NCBI GenBank assembly: GCA_937941455.1
Contig: CALDHM010000056.1
Coordinates: 1-42,468, forward strand
Length of the DNA stretch: 42,468 bases
Reading direction: 5' to 3'
Source of the DNA: an uncultured Pirellulaceae bacterium
Lineage (GTDB): Bacteria > Planctomycetota > Planctomycetia > Pirellulales > Pirellulaceae
Each line of letters starts with the position of its first letter. Position 1 is the first letter of the stretch. Position numbers and translations under genes: made by a program. The notes under the pieces are model-generated. The model was not told the origin of the DNA. It searched no databases and saw nothing but the letters and a program-made list of their open reading frames with translations. Shown here piece after piece: positions 4,508-40,605 of the stretch.

Positions 4508-7126
4508 TCACCGAGCGTCACGTTTTAGTCCGGATTTCGTGGGGGCGGCTTGGAGTGGGTTTTCCGGCCAATGATGCTTGGGATAGCGGCGCAGCAATTC
4601 TTTGCGAATGGTCGGATAGGTGTTCTTCCAAAAGCTCGCCAAATCGCTCGTCAGTTGCTGCGGGCGGTAGTTCGGGCCGAGCAACTCCAACAAACAAGCG
4701 ATCCGGCCTCCGGCCAGTCGCGGCGTTTCCGCCAATCCGAACAACTCTTGCAAGCGAATGGACAATTTGGGAGGCCGACCAACCTCGTAAGCGACGTCGA
4801 CCTGACTGCCACTGGGAGCCTTCCAGGTCACGGGCAACCATTGATCGAGTTGTCCTTGCCAAGACCCAAGGGCCGCGCGGAGATGATCTCCCCAACGAGC
4901 CGACCGCACCTCGTCAAGCGAGCGGCAACCGTAACTAACCGCGCGGGCCAATTCATGCAGATCCGCCTCATCGAACTTTGGCCATGGGTGCTCGGGCAGC
5001 CACGCGCGAGCACAAGCAAGTCGCGTGAGCAAGCCACCTACCTCGGGATCGTCAGCCGGGAAAACCCGTTCCCAATGGGCTAAGACCTGTGGCAACAAAA
5101 CCTCCGCAATTTTTTCTAGATCGGTGGCCGGCACTGGCTTTTCGTCGATAACCAAATCCATGAAGAATTCTCGCCGCCGCGCTTGCACGTTGCGCTGTGT
5201 CGGATGAAAAAAATACTCGGTTCCCTCGCTGACCCACTCGACCGGCAGCCGCTCCCGTTCTACTGCCGACGCGAGACGGACTTCGCTGTCTCCCGGTCGC
5301 TGCTCGACATCCAAGCAAACAAAGAACTCCGCATCGCGAACGGCCGAGGTTTTTGCAAGTTTGACGCCGACGCCGCCGACCATGACTCCGCGATCGCTCC
5401 CGATTTGGCGGCGACGAGCCAAGCGATCCCAGTACGCGGCGGCAATCGCTTGCCGCAGTCGATCGTCATCGGCGGCGGATGCAAAAGCAGTCGCGGGCCG
5501 GTATTGCTCCCCCTCTGCTACTGAGCGACCTGCTTCCTCGGCAAGCGCAGTGGAATCACTTTCTCTCAACTCCGCCAGTGCCTCGCACAGCAACCGCGCC
5601 GTGCGAGCGACCTGCCGCGCCGCGGCAACTTGCAGTTCGGGTCGCGGCTCGCCGCCCATGAAGGCCTCCATGGCTGCCACCCGATCCACCAGATCGGAGT
5701 CGCTGCGCGGGGTATCGCGGCTAGGTGCGGGGAGTCGCGGCTCGCGACCACTTGGTGCTCGAAAGGGATCGCGTTCGCTGAGAAGTGCAGCCGCCAGAGC
5801 TCCCCGTTCTCCCACCCCAAATTCTTGGGCGGCCAGCAGTAGGCGAGCCAGCCGCGGAGCAACAGGCATCGCTAGCATGGCTTGGCCACGCGGCGTCACT
5901 GCCTCTGCGGACAAAGCCCCAAGGCTGCGCAAAGTCCGCTTTGCCGATTCGATGGCTTCTGGCGAGGGGGGGGTCAACCAAGGAAACTCGGCCGTGTCAC
6001 GCTCGCCGAGGGACGCTAGTTGCAAAACAGCTCCGGACAAATCACCGCGCAGGATCTCGGGAGTATCGAACTCCGGCCGCCCGCGGTTCATGCTCTCTGT
6101 CCAGAGTCGAAAACAAATTCCTGGACCTTGACGTCCTGCACGGCCAGCTCGCTGATCAGCCGACGCCAGAGAAATGCTTTCGAGATTCAGGCGGGACAGC
6201 CCAACCGCCGGATCAAATCGGAGAACTCTGGCGCGCCCACTATCGATGACCCCACTGACTCCATCGATTGTCAGTGACGTTTCGGCGACGTTCGTCGATA
6301 AGATGATTTTCCGTCGCGTGGCTGGGGCCAGTACGCGATCTTGCTCGTCCGGAGGCAGATCGCCATACAATTCGAACACATCGCAATCCGCCTTGCTGGC
6401 GAGGTGCTCAATCGCTCGCCTGGTCCGTTTGATCTCTCCCACGCCCGGCAGGAAAACGAGCAAGTGCCCTGGCGTGCTGGACAGAGCCGTCGGCAAAATT
6501 TCCACAACTTGTCGGTCGAGGTCGTCTTGAGTGTATTGGCGAGCGTAGCGCATGGCGACCGGAAAAAGTCGCCCGGGGCTTTCCACCACCGGCGATTGCT
6601 CAAGGTACTCAACCAGCGGTCCACAGTTCAAAGTCGCGCTCATCACGACCAGCCGCAAGTCGGGTCGAACCGTTTCCTGAAGCCGCTTGATCATCCCCAA
6701 AGCCACATCCAATTCGAGCGTCCGCTCGTGAAACTCGTCGAGCGCGACGGTCGAAAAATTTTCCAAAAAAGGATCGCTTAACAGGCGTCTCAGCAAAACG
6801 CCCGTTGTCATGGCAATCAACTGCGTCCGCCCATGCCAACGCCGTTCGCCCCGCACTTGGTAGCCGATTTCTTCCCCTAGCGCTGTGCCCGCAAGCTGGC
6901 AAAGTCGCGCGGCAATCGCCCGGGCGGCAACGCGGCGCGGCTGCGTCAGAATTAACTTGCCCGGTTGGTTTCCGGACCTCAGGAGTGTTAGTGGCAGCAG
7001 CGTTGTTTTCCCGGCCCCCGGCGGCGCTCGCAAGATGACCCGATTGGTGCGGGACAGATGCTCCAGCAGTTGTGGCAATACCGCGGCGACCGGAAGGTTT
7101 TCCAGACCATCAAGCACGTTGGACAT
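4508..7126 (-). CDS. hrpB: ATP-dependent helicase HrpB (DEAH-box family)
   Basis: Large superfamily 2 DEAH/RHA-type helicase; the cellular substrate of HrpB is not well defined. I place the start at the ATG at 7126 (872 aa), preceded by GTGGAACGCC; an in-frame TTG at 7138 would add four residues. Motif I is PPGAGKTT near residue 40, motif II is the HrpB-type DEFHER, motif III contains SAT, and motif VI is QRAGRAGR. A helicase-associated domain follows, and the C-terminal HrpB-specific region ends with the YRPQQLTSDLASFWKNTYP-type block and a KHHWPENP tail. It is the last gene of a minus-strand run, 33 bases after the hydrolase stop, so co-transcription is likely. Confidence 0.95.
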   Translation of the reverse strand: MSNVLDGLENLPVAAVLPQLLEHLSRTNRVILRAPPGAGKTTLLPLTLLRSGNQPGKLILTQPRRVAARAIAARLCQLAGTALGEEIGYQVRGERRWHGRTQLIAMTTGVLLRRLLSDPFLENFSTVALDEFHERTLELDVALGMIKRLQETVRPDLRLVVMSATLNCGPLVEYLEQSPVVESPGRLFPVAMRYARQYTQDDLDRQVVEILPTALSSTPGHLLVFLPGVGEIKRTRRAIEHLASKADCDVFELYGDLPPDEQDRVLAPATRRKIILSTNVAETSLTIDGVSGVIDSGRARVLRFDPAVGLSRLNLESISLASADQRAGRAGRQGPGICFRLWTESMNRGRPEFDTPEILRGDLSGAVLQLASLGERDTAEFPWLTPPSPEAIESAKRTLRSLGALSAEAVTPRGQAMLAMPVAPRLARLLLAAQEFGVGERGALAAALLSERDPFRAPSGREPRLPAPSRDTPRSDSDLVDRVAAMEAFMGGEPRPELQVAAARQVARTARLLCEALAELRESDSTALAEEAGRSVAEGEQYRPATAFASAADDDRLRQAIAAAYWDRLARRRQIGSDRGVMVGGVGVKLAKTSAVRDAEFFVCLDVEQRPGDSEVRLASAVERERLPVEWVSEGTEYFFHPTQRNVQARRREFFMDLVIDEKPVPATDLEKIAEVLLPQVLAHWERVFPADDPEVGGLLTRLACARAWLPEHPWPKFDEADLHELARAVSYGCRSLDEVRSARWGDHLRAALGSWQGQLDQWLPVTWKAPSGSQVDVAYEVGRPPKLSIRLQELFGLAETPRLAGGRIACLLELLGPNYRPQQLTSDLASFWKNTYPTIRKELLRRYPKHHWPENPLQAAPTKSGLKRDAR

Positions 7127-7159
7127 GGCGTTCCACAAACAGAAAGCTGACGATCGGAG

Positions 7160-8014
7160 CTATCGCGGGGACCGGCGCTGCCCGAACAGCCATTCGTAGA
7201 ACGCCTCATCGCGATAGGTCTCGGTCCAACTATCATGGCCGACGCCCGGCAACTCGCGATACTTGAGCGAACCTTGCGCCTCCTTCAAAGCTCGCACCAT
7301 CCGCCGTGACCGCTCGACCGGAATGATCCGATCCGCGTCGCCATGGACAATCCAGAGGGGCACCGTTTTCAGGCGGTTGATCGCCTCGCCGCTATTGTCA
7401 CCGCCGCCGCAGATGGGTGCCGCCGCCGCGAACAACTCGGGCCAACGTGTGGCGGCGTCGAAGGTGCCATAACCTCCCATCGAAATCCCCGTGACATAGA
7501 CCCGGTCGGGGTCGATCGGCAGGGTCGCCAGCGCGTGATCCAGAAGTCCCTTACAAAGGGCCATGGTCGGACTTGGCTGTTCGGGCATGCGGTGCTCGTC
7601 GCTGCACCAGTTCACGGCCACCCAGGCCGTTTCGTGGGGGCATTGCGGGACGAGCACAAAGCACGGGTACCGGTCCCGCCGCGCCACGAACTCTCGAATG
7701 CCATGTTTGAGTTGAGCTTGATTGTCATGCCCCCGCTCCCCTGCGCCATGCAAGAACAAGATCAAAGGATACTTCTGGCCATCCTCCAACTGCTGCGGAG
7801 CGAGCTGGCGATATAACAATCGATCCCCCTCTGCCGAAATGAATTCCTCCCGGCTCAAGGCCGCTTGCCAATCGCCTCCGCGAGGGGGGTCGGTCAGAAC
7901 ACGATCCTTGCGCGAATCGGATGGTTGCTGAGAAAATAGCGAGTCTTCGTTCACGTAGGGCATCAAAGTACAGAGGGCAACAAGAATCATCCATCGAAGT
8001 GACTTGCGAAACAT
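7160..8014 (-). CDS. secreted alpha/beta hydrolase (prolyl-oligopeptidase/esterase-like, COG4099 type)
   Basis: 284 aa. The N-terminus (MFRKSLRWMILVALC) is a basic-hydrophobic signal-peptide-like segment, so the enzyme is probably exported. The fold signatures are LILFLHGAGERG (oxyanion loop), the nucleophile elbow GISMGG near residue 175 preceded by DPDRVYVT, an acidic residue in HGDADRIIP and a His in GVGHDSW. These give a complete Ser-Asp-His triad. This matches predicted peptidases/feruloyl-esterase-like hydrolases; the substrate is unknown. It follows the DUF1570-like gene by 72 bases and precedes hrpB by 33. Confidence 0.85.
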   Translation of the reverse strand: MFRKSLRWMILVALCTLMPYVNEDSLFSQQPSDSRKDRVLTDPPRGGDWQAALSREEFISAEGDRLLYRQLAPQQLEDGQKYPLILFLHGAGERGHDNQAQLKHGIREFVARRDRYPCFVLVPQCPHETAWVAVNWCSDEHRMPEQPSPTMALCKGLLDHALATLPIDPDRVYVTGISMGGYGTFDAATRWPELFAAAAPICGGGDNSGEAINRLKTVPLWIVHGDADRIIPVERSRRMVRALKEAQGSLKYRELPGVGHDSWTETYRDEAFYEWLFGQRRSPR

Positions 8015-13908: not shown

Positions 13909-14323
13909 GGAAGTCCTTTCTTAGAAAATGGCCATGCGCTGTCAACGATTGATCTCACGATCAGCCACAACGCGCGGCGTATGGGTCAAGCTTGATTACA
14001 AAATGAACTGCCGGAATTCGTTAGTGTCCAGTTTTCACAAGAACCGCGGGCTTACCACTTTGCGGCTGGAATGTTTCGAGAATAATCCTGGTACGGAAAT
14101 TACAAGAGCTACTGCGCGTCGGCTGATTTGGCAAACCCTTGGCTCGAAATTCGTCAAAGCCCCAGTCGCGAATACTTCGGACCTCTTGGCCCTTACTGAC
14201 GATTGTCCCCATCAACGGACAGCGAACAAGAGGAGTGGCGTGAGTTGAATTGTCTCTCGCAACGGAAACGCTCCCGCTGTTGACGCGCGCCGCCGATGAG
14301 CGAAATCGCCCACCGTATTCCGA
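13909..14323. other. intergenic region between purQ and the baeRF gene
   Basis: About 415 bases. A minus-strand open frame at 14021-14215 (64 codons) has no RBS or family that I recognise, and I do not call it. It must contain the baeRF promoter, if that gene is not read from purQ. Confidence 0.4.
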
Positions 14324-24988: not shown

Positions 24989-26398
24989 ATGTCTCTCCCA
25001 ACGACCAAAATACGCCCGATGACGGCTTGGACCCGCCCGATCCTCAAAGTTCTTGATTTATGCGCGTTGCTGATCGGCTTGTGGATCATGATCACCTTGG
25101 TCCCGGAGGCCGACAGTCGATCGACGATCCTGGTGGCACTCGTCGGAATCGGATTGTTTTCGTTGGCCGCTGAAATCGTCGGGGTCTATCGGGATTGGCA
25201 AGGTCAAACGATCGAAAAAGAACTGGGCTGTGTTCTCCTGGCATGGTTGGCGGCCCATTTGTGTATTCTCTCGCTGGGGCAGTTCACCCAGTACAGCACG
25301 GAAATTTCTTCGCCCGTCGCTTATTTGTGGGGGCTATGGTCTACGCTGTTATCGCTAATCGGCCGGATCCTATTCCGGCATCTGATCGTCTGGGTGAGCA
25401 CGACGGGCATCAACACCCGTGGCTATGCCGTGATCGGTGCTACCGATTTGGGTGTGCAGTTGGTCCGGAACATCCAAAACCAACCCGACATGGGTTTGTC
25501 GTTTCTGGGGTTTTACGACGATCGACCTGAATCGCGATCGGCGTCCCTACCTCCTGAGATTTCGCGACGACTAGGAACGCTCAATCAATTGATCGAACGA
25601 GCCAAACGGGGAGAAGTGCCTGTCGTATTCATCACCTTGCCAATGCGTGCCGAGGGACGGATTCAGCAAGTCGTCAAGGAGCTGGCCGATACCACCTCGT
25701 CCGTGTATCTGGTTCCCGACTTTTTTGTTTTTCAATTGCTCCATAGCCGTTGGACGGACGTTGGTGGAATTCCGGCCGTCAGCATCTATGAAAATCCATT
25801 CTACGGTGTGGATGGGGTGGTCAAACGAATTTTCGATCTGGTGTTCGCATCGCTCGCCTTGCTGTTGGCCGCCATTCCGATGGTGATCATCGCGATCCTG
25901 ATCAAGCTGACCAGCCCTGGTCCGGTCTTCTTTCGCCAAAAACGCTACGGCCTGGATGGAAAAGAAATCCTCGTCTGGAAATTCCGTTCAATGGTCACGA
26001 TGGACAATGGCCCGCAGGTGCGCCAAGCCACGAAAAACGATCCGCGGGTGACCCGCATCGGTGCGATTTTGCGAAAAACCTCGCTCGATGAATTGCCCCA
26101 ACTGTTCAATGTCATCAACGGGACGATGTCCATGGTCGGCCCACGCCCTCACGCCTCAGCCCACAACGAATATTACCGCCAGCAAATCGATGGCTATATG
26201 CTACGGCACAAGGTCAAGCCGGGAATCACCGGCATGGCACAGGTCAATGGCTGCCGTGGTGAGACGGATGTGATCGAAAAGATGGAACGACGCATTCACT
26301 TCGATCACCGCTATATCAGGGAATGGTCGCTGTGGCTGGATATCAAGATTCTGTACCAGACGATCAAGGTCGTTTTCGCCCGCGAGAATGCGTACTAG
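24989..26398 (+). CDS. polyprenyl-phosphate sugar-1-phosphate transferase (WcaJ/EPS biosynthesis type)
   Basis: 469 aa membrane enzyme that starts exopolysaccharide or capsule units by moving a sugar-1-phosphate to undecaprenyl phosphate. N-terminal hydrophobic segments (residues about 12-125) form the membrane bundle, followed by a CoA-binding-like domain (YAVIGATDLGVQLVRNI, LGFYDDRP). The C-terminal catalytic Bac_transf domain begins at KRIFDLVFASLALLLAAIP, with KLTSPGPVFFRQKRYG, WKFRSM, SLDELPQLFNV, MSMVGPRP and KPGITGMAQVNG. No other glycan genes are nearby. Its TAG stop lies inside the left end of a palindromic repeat, an unusual junction. Confidence 0.93.
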   Translation: MSLPTTKIRPMTAWTRPILKVLDLCALLIGLWIMITLVPEADSRSTILVALVGIGLFSLAAEIVGVYRDWQGQTIEKELGCVLLAWLAAHLCILSLGQFTQYSTEISSPVAYLWGLWSTLLSLIGRILFRHLIVWVSTTGINTRGYAVIGATDLGVQLVRNIQNQPDMGLSFLGFYDDRPESRSASLPPEISRRLGTLNQLIERAKRGEVPVVFITLPMRAEGRIQQVVKELADTTSSVYLVPDFFVFQLLHSRWTDVGGIPAVSIYENPFYGVDGVVKRIFDLVFASLALLLAAIPMVIIAILIKLTSPGPVFFRQKRYGLDGKEILVWKFRSMVTMDNGPQVRQATKNDPRVTRIGAILRKTSLDELPQLFNVINGTMSMVGPRPHASAHNEYYRQQIDGYMLRHKVKPGITGMAQVNGCRGETDVIEKMERRIHFDHRYIREWSLWLDIKILYQTIKVVFARENAY

Positions 26399-26499
26399 GT
26401 TTTGTCCTAAAATCATCAGTCCTAACGCGCTAGCTTCCGGATTTTGGGGAATCGCAGGCTAGTGCCCTGCGGCTGATGGGTTTTGGAACAAAGCCTGGT
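26394..26499 (-). repeat. ~105-bp palindromic element, copy 1
   Basis: Imperfect inverted arms: ACTAGGTTTTGTCCTAAAAT at the left and, in reverse complement, ACCAGGCTTTGTTCCAAAAC from the right end. An inner dyad has GCGCTAGC facing GGCTAGTGC. Its reverse complement aligns along the whole length with the element at 40466-40570, at roughly three quarters identity by eye. It begins within the last codons of the sugar transferase gene. REP/MITE-like; no ORF. Confidence 0.8.
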
Positions 26500-40188: not shown

Positions 40189-40605
40189 AATATCGCTGCG
40201 AAAAGGAGAATGAATCAAAGGAAATTCGTTAGTCGAATACCTCCGCTCCCACAAGTCTCGAAGAACGTGGTGTGCCGAAAGACCGTGGTGTGTGCCGCGC
40301 GTCGGCCCGTTCAATTACGATAGCAAATTCGCCATGGATATGGGGCGTATGTCGTCGGCCATGTTTGGCAAAACATCATGAATTGTCCCCATTTTTCGGC
40401 TGTTGTTCATGGTATGGGACGACGTGCCCTTCCCCGACCCTGCTGGCTGTGCCGGTTAGCCGCGGCTAGGCTTTGTGTCAAAATCCGTCAGCCGCTGGGC
40501 GTTAGCCCGCGGTTGTCGCGAAAACCGCATGCTGGCGCGTTCCGACTGATACTCTCAAGACAAAGCCTAGTAAATCGCTGATTGATTTGGCTGGGAACGC
40601 GAGAG
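40189..40605. other. intergenic region upstream of glyA
   Basis: About 415 bases with no gene. It holds the glyA promoter region and the second copy of the ~105-bp palindromic element. Confidence 0.5.
40466..40570 (+). repeat. ~105-bp palindromic element, copy 2
   Basis: CTAGGCTTTGTGTC at the left end faces GACAAAGCCTAG at the right end; inner GCGTTAGCCCGCGGTT faces AACCGC and GCTGGCGCG. It is colinear with the reverse complement of 26394-26499, including AGCCGCWGGG, TAGCCYGCG and GCGCGTT...GACTGAT. It lies between two minus-strand genes and has no ORF. Confidence 0.8.

Follow-up and report, generated by a model that had tools for sequence, protein, structure and literature searches.

A 105-bp dispersed repeat of a Pirellulaceae genome, probably a non-autonomous element with IS5-type ends and a captured REPIN

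Results

The window, the whole stretch of DNA analysed here, comprises 42,468 nucleotides of contig CALDHM010000056.1 (assembly GCA_937941455.1) from an uncultured Pirellulaceae bacterium, and contains three copies of a repeat of about 105 bp (Table 1). Copy 1 is intergenic, flanked by a gene for a TPR protein and a gene for serine hydroxymethyltransferase. The start of copy 2 falls on the stop codon of a gene for a sugar transferase (CDS 24989-26398). Copy 3, again located between genes that have recognised domains, overlaps a 106-amino-acid frame without a Pfam match.

A sequence-only reading of the window had described copies 1 and 2 as colinear, non-coding and opposite in orientation. Both are real: they align end to end, on opposite strands, at 75.5% identity, with an alignment score of 52.5 where 300 shuffles reached no more than 4.5, and the arms, both inner dyads and the central spacer are colinear between them. 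Neither is located within a gene that carries a recognised domain. The limits of copy 1 (40466-40570) stand as first given, and those of copy 2 move from 26394-26499 to 26395-26498. When folded, each strand of both copies surpassed 200 of 200 dinucleotide shuffles (z from -4.4 to -6.7).

Table 1. Copies of the repeat in the window and parts of copy 1
Feature	Position	Strand	Remarks
Full element, putative chimera, copy 1	40466..40570	+	105 bp; 83.8% identity to the family consensus
Left arm CTAGGCTTTGTGTCAAAATCCG, predicted IS5-type terminal inverted repeat and a few bases	40466..40487	+	
REP-b half of the REPIN core, TCAGCCG..CGCGGTT	40488..40514	+	hairpin by folding
Spacer separating the two REPs	40515..40522	none	
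REP-a half of the REPIN core (inverted), AACCG..CTGAT	40523..40550	-	hairpin by folding
Right arm ..GACAAAGCCTAG, inverted copy of the terminal repeat	40551..40570	-	
Copy 2	26395..26498	-	CTAG end overlaps TAG (26396-26398), where the sugar-transferase gene stops
Copy 3, more decayed, absent from the sequence-only reading	13986..14091	-	60.2 bits, E 8.5e-13; 68.9% identity to the consensus

The repeat is an old, decaying small mobile element with at least 157 copies in the host genome. A first DNA search of the assembly (4.04 Mb in 77 contigs) gave 99 candidates, of which the best 40 were scored. In a profile search with model R1, all of the best 150 of 1871 candidates had E ≤ 2.5e-7, and 149 of these 150 covered the full model span (1-105). 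Seven further places, found by a second search only and mapped to the genome, add to these and bring the total to at least 157, rather than just the two copies from which a family had been proposed. R1 is mainly a sequence profile, since RNAalifold gave a poor structure of 8 pairs on the underlying alignment A2 (31 candidates, L028 excluded, 30 aligned). The arm motif TAGGCTTTGTNCCNAAA, with up to 2 mismatches, matched the host genome 192 times, against 4 matches for the reversed control.

For measures of divergence, 194 matches were reduced to 150 aligned sequences and, after removal of opposite-strand duplicates, to 113 distinct places. These copies are on average 81.5% identical to their consensus and 69.2% identical pairwise; the latter value is near that expected from a star-like burst, and the expansion looks old and may have been roughly star-like. 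Conservation is about equal along the element (arms 85% and 80%, REP-b 82%, spacer 82%, REP-a 84%). The many dispersed copies are non-coding and lie mostly outside long ORFs, as expected of a MITE: ORFs of at least 150 amino acids cover 21% of element sequence versus 79% of the flanks in 73 copies, and the centre of the element falls within such an ORF in 14 of the 73. In this genome the arms, hereafter the shell, and the core move as one unit. Today the copies are probably inert relics.

The inner 64 bp of the element is a REPIN, an inverted pair of REP hairpins with a spacer, in which REP-b reads TCAGCCGCAGGGCGCTAGCCCGCGGTT and the inverted REP-a reads ATTAGCCGGAACGCG, C or T, then TAGCGTCCGGTT. 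As the tag is TTAG or TCAG and the GTAG tag of classical REPs is absent, the label REPIN rests on architecture and gene linkage and not on membership of the GTAG family. When one copy was used as query against 60 genomes, 15 had matches, including the host genome; in the 14 others none extended across all 105 bp, most covering about positions 20-86 of the element, with extremes at 11 and 98.

An initial hunt for a RAYT gene, using PF01797 and a loose motif on 30 loci and 20 further stretches out of 116 Y1 matches, found the core beside none of them and only related REPs beside their Y1 frames. In genome G032 a Y1 frame (PF01797, 28.4 bits, cut-off 23) is embedded in REPs that share the architecture of those in the core and have the tip GCAA instead of GCTA (stretch L123), and this array supplied the query that led to genomes G055 and G033. 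On contig C61 of G055 (stretch L160), REPINs at 1936-2013 and 2507-2583, with the same a/b make-up as the core of the element, lie on both sides of an uninterrupted frame (2030-2485). Its product is 44% identical to the G032 protein and scores just 14.2 bits against PF01797 (E 0.05, cut-off 23); no NCBIfam family was reached. On contig C143 of G033, a fragmented RAYT-like homologue lies between a REPIN and, at its opposite end, two diverging REPs. The REPIN motif had 0 matches in 112,963 bases of control sequence. Homologues of the G032 protein were present in 40 of 117 genomes, and the host genome had none in this search. The sequence-only reading had suggested a search for a RAYT-type or other transposase with matching ends; a RAYT-like gene with matching repeats does exist, in relatives, and none was found in the host genome itself. 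In genome G017 (stretch L153), a tandem array of about 94 bp with REP-like units GAGCCGCGACGCGTAAGCGGCCGGGT lies on both sides of a RAYT-like homologue.

The arms of about 20 bp (CTAGGCTTTGT..CCAAAA) are, judged by their resemblance to the termini of transposase-encoding elements, IS5-type ends. The nearest parent found is what appears to be a complete IS5-family insertion sequence in the Phycisphaerales MAG WB-IL-13 (stretch L416), where 953 bp lie between CTAGGCTTTGTCTCAAAA and its inverted partner, with 0 mismatches over 17 nt. Two overlapping frames inside these ends match NF033580 at positions 2-117 (104.9 bits) and 113-255 (132.4 bits; cut-off 110) and jointly span 2 to 255 of its 258 positions; they also match PF01609 (50.5 bits, cut-off 23) and, above cut-off, PF13340. 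In a Deltaproteobacteria MAG (stretch L394, reverse complement of 6267-7897), such ends are 1,631 bp apart and enclose an IS5 N-terminal frame (NF033580, 115.1 bits), a C-terminal piece (19.7 bits) and a Y1 frame (PF01797, 78.6 bits; NF033573, 60.2 bits, cut-off 55); by eye, CCCGGGC-type hairpins are close to both arms and inside the IS5 gene. Compared with the arms of L416 and L394, those of the element (CTAGGCTTTGTGCCAAAA left, CTAGGCTTTGTCCCAAAA right) show differences of 2 and 1 bases. To within these 1-2 bases, a transposase-encoding IS5 element with the same terminal inverted repeats was found in other bacteria and not in the host genome. Related ends, CTAGGCTCTGTTTGAAAA with one end TTAG, bound two IS5-type copies in genome G260, and those of IS5-type copies in G093 and G001 are less similar. 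In four further stretches (L343, L386, L402 and L409, the last being the complete Planctomycetes chromosome Pan216) the arm leads, by eye only, into an apparent IS5 C-terminus.

In a Myxococcota MAG (stretch L349, 4352-5429), the order is arm, hairpins, a Y1 piece (PF01797, 50.7 bits) and the C-terminal half of an IS5 gene (NF033580, 89.2 bits, under the cut-off for the whole protein). L394 and L349 are IS5-type elements, from MAGs named as two other phyla, with a HUH (IS200-like) transposase frame and hairpins just within the arm. They show the existence of such composites and not the descent of this family from one, since their hairpins differ from this REPIN, their MAGs are assigned by name to other phyla and their transposase genes are fragmented.

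In the host genome, searches for DDE_3, for Y1, for one RAYT-like protein and for one IS5 N-terminus found no transposase with matching arms. There is one Y1 frame, interrupted by a stop, and one IS5 relic that contains two stops and has different ends (single N-terminal query). A driver of the IS630/Tc1 type, an idea suggested by the TA ends, was abandoned as DDE_3 had no match. These results weaken a claim of present mobility and leave the claim of origin as it was. At 19 loci with unpaired CTAGG arms, no transposase was recognised by eye in frames of at least 110 codons (first 120 residues).

The first base of the element is C or T in 107 and the last is G or A in 103 of the 113 copies, and the next two end positions are T and A (72-75% each), a level of conservation that most of the arm exceeds. 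A longer target duplication was seen in none of the 29 copies tested of these 113, and odd dinucleotides at one end had no correspondence at the other (69 of 113 copies). Insertion at YTAR-like sites with duplication of TA alone would fit these end sequences, which do not prove it. For IS5 itself, the accessible part of PMC11677980 gives a target duplication of 4 bp.

Shells of this type occur in other genomes with other interiors. With up to 1 mismatch, CTAGGCTTTGTNCCAAAA was found in 25 genomes among 241 from the host's family, several of them with single hits, as the reversed control gives too. The interiors are GTAG-tagged hairpins in G001 (same genus), G020, G260, G261 and G093, GGGAGGGCGAGGCTCC hairpins in G068 and GGGTCTGACCC hairpins in G064, G180 and G242. 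A scan of the genome contigs collection with CTAGGCTTTGTCYCAAAA yielded 114 stretches, 101 of them planctomycete-named, 9 from Myxococcota and 1 from Deltaproteobacteria; the remaining 3, one each from Clostridium, Alcaligenaceae and Bacteroidales, may be chance. The 131 exact arms in these 114 stretches have a partner within 260 bp in 94 cases, only farther away in 2 (L394 and L416) and none in 35, some of which sit at contig edges. In stretches L325, L335, L339, L355, L371, L373, L375 and L428 the shell encloses a pair of REPs with the GCTA tip and otherwise different sequence.

Among 22 representative shells, hand-picked at one per genome, the interiors fell into 14 groups without mutual BLAST match (E ≤ 0.001). 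Fold z values, from mononucleotide shuffles, were -3 or lower in 15 interiors, above -1.5 in 5 (SJ86, OFTM250, MB_PLM_2, AS06rmz and HKST-UBA45) and intermediate in 2, namely the host's own example (-2.65) and SRR5739202_bin.32 (-2.36). In the Pirellulales genome SJ86 (stretch L317), the interior of the CTAGG shell has a short tandem run of GGGGAGGGTTA units.

Conversely, the REPIN class of the element occurs within other shells: CTAGTG.. in G018 (two types) and G055, TAAGGACT.. in G032, and CAGGGCTA.. in G010 and G020. In G010 the CAGGGCTA.. end adjoins, with no mismatch, a broken frame of the ISAs1 family (PF13808, 56.6 bits, one stop; stretch L254), and exact 10-bp target duplications were present at 3 of 8 places examined. 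Three stretches of this genome (L187, L188 and L189) carry ISAs1-type mini-elements that enclose this REPIN class and have exact 10-bp target duplications.

Discussion

Arms and core have separate identities and lead separate lives elsewhere. The proposal of the sequence-only reading, a dispersed non-coding REP/MITE-like family, was largely right, the element being REP-like in its REPIN core and MITE-like in its insertion-sequence arms. The element is, with good probability, a non-autonomous MITE that combines ends of the IS5 family with an interior REPIN taken over from a RAYT system. A transposase of the IS5 type, of which the searches of the present host genome found none with these ends, would have moved the 105-bp unit in trans through its CTAGG ends. 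It would have inserted mostly into intergenic DNA, at YTAR-like sites with probably TA alone duplicated, and the REPIN would have been passenger cargo with no further need of its RAYT. Less certain is how the chimera arose: a HUH transposase unit with its REP hairpins may have entered an IS5-type element, and later deletion of the transposase genes from this composite may have left the arrangement arm-REP-REP-arm.

The same chimera may possibly have had another origin, which we hold to be a real but lesser prospect, namely repeated insertion of REPINs into the middle of MITEs, perhaps at single-stranded hairpin tips, instead of deletion from a composite. The occurrence of one REPIN class within differing ends (CTAGTG.., CAGGGCTA.. 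and TAAGGACT..) would be in keeping with this, as would the REP dimers described as "inserted within long palindromic sequences" in the portion of PMC3733652 at hand. However, none of the short shells seen was free of cargo with a matching junction, and a composite stage is visible in L394 and L349. The sole short shell, in G242 (stretch L234, 958-1005), retains part of a GGGTCAGACCC cargo; this 48-bp palindrome joins a pair of CTAGG arms to one arm of that cargo and is probably a deletion derivative.

That the arms are simply extended REPIN sequence and that a RAYT moved the whole unit is improbable. Relatives do carry the core as a REPIN with a RAYT-like neighbour, and RAYT genes with flanking terminal inverted repeats in place of REPs are on record in the part of PMC3733652 available. 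Against this, the matches in relatives exclude the arms of the element, arms of this kind elsewhere enclose unrelated interiors and, in L416, an IS5-family transposase, and no homologue of the RAYT-like protein was found in the host genome.

The sequence-only reading had named compensatory changes between the arms as a point that would support a family and their absence as one that would refute it. No excess was found: over the full palindrome, with the structure folded from the consensus, the 113 copies had 63 double-change cells, compared with 60.9 ± 6.8 after shuffling (63 or more in 130 of 300 shuffles). The two-hairpin structure likewise had 19 double changes versus 17.6 ± 4.0, and there was no excess in the best 40 and the last 40 of the 113 copies. 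The share of paired cells, 77.9%, was marginally over the 77.6 ± 0.23 of the shuffles, 27 of 300 of which reached it. Missing covariation is what the decay of a palindromic ancestor predicts, and since copies average 81.5% identity to the consensus without clear covariation, the element is unlikely to be a conserved structured RNA. The reading as a family of regulatory RNAs or terminators kept by selection was dropped as very improbable in spite of the strong hairpins on both strands, the mostly intergenic copies, one of which adjoins a stop codon, and the slight surplus of paired cells, because double changes stay within the shuffle range for both structures, conservation is as high in the spacer as in the stems and the window had no Rfam match at gathering cut-offs.

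Beyond this genome, a wider proposal strikes us as nearly an even matter: DDE transposons and HUH (RAYT-type) transposases would form recurrent composites, shells of the IS5 and ISAs1 types would repeatedly acquire the current REPIN of a genome and exchange cargos across genera in a modular manner, and REPINs would outlive their RAYT by riding a DDE transposase.

Relation to known systems

REPINs are thought to depend on their own RAYT. A REPIN present at 157 copies or more within insertion-sequence ends, in a genome that yielded no homologue of the RAYT-like protein tested, points to an alternative route for the spread of REPs, of which the same ends with unrelated hairpin cargos in other genera would be a part. 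Caution is also called for with hairpin repeats that emerge from structure searches, as they may be transposon cargo and not functional RNA. In the open-licence literature we did not find an exchange of shell and cargo across genera, or an assignment of such palindromes to insertion-sequence ends.

REP dimers within palindromes were reported in three species in 2013: GTAG-15 of A. variabilis, CGTC-1 of H. neapolitanus and GTAG-23 of T. roseum (PMC3733652). They resemble the present element in that the REPs are enclosed by a longer outer palindrome, but the part of that paper available gives these palindromes no transposon family and describes no different cargo for other genera. QMITE2, said in the accessible text of PMC10969869 to be a MITE containing a GTAG REP, is like the element a REP-containing MITE; it differs in its host, and that text makes no mention of cargo exchange between shells.

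With IS5-family insertion sequences of the NF033580 type and their MITEs, the element shares near-identical ends, dispersed non-coding copies and what are probably YTAR-like sites. It differs from them in that its interior is a REPIN and not the remnant of a transposase gene, and in that no parent with the same ends was found in the host genome. Like the REPIN/RAYT systems, as far as the available part of PMC3116915 describes them, it has two inverted REPs with a spacer, forms hairpins and is mostly intergenic, and in a relative its REPIN type lies on both sides of a RAYT-like gene. Unlike those systems, it has the tag TTAG or TCAG instead of GTAG, a RAYT-like homologue was not found in its host genome, and its REPIN comes with insertion-sequence arms in 149 of the best 150 matches.
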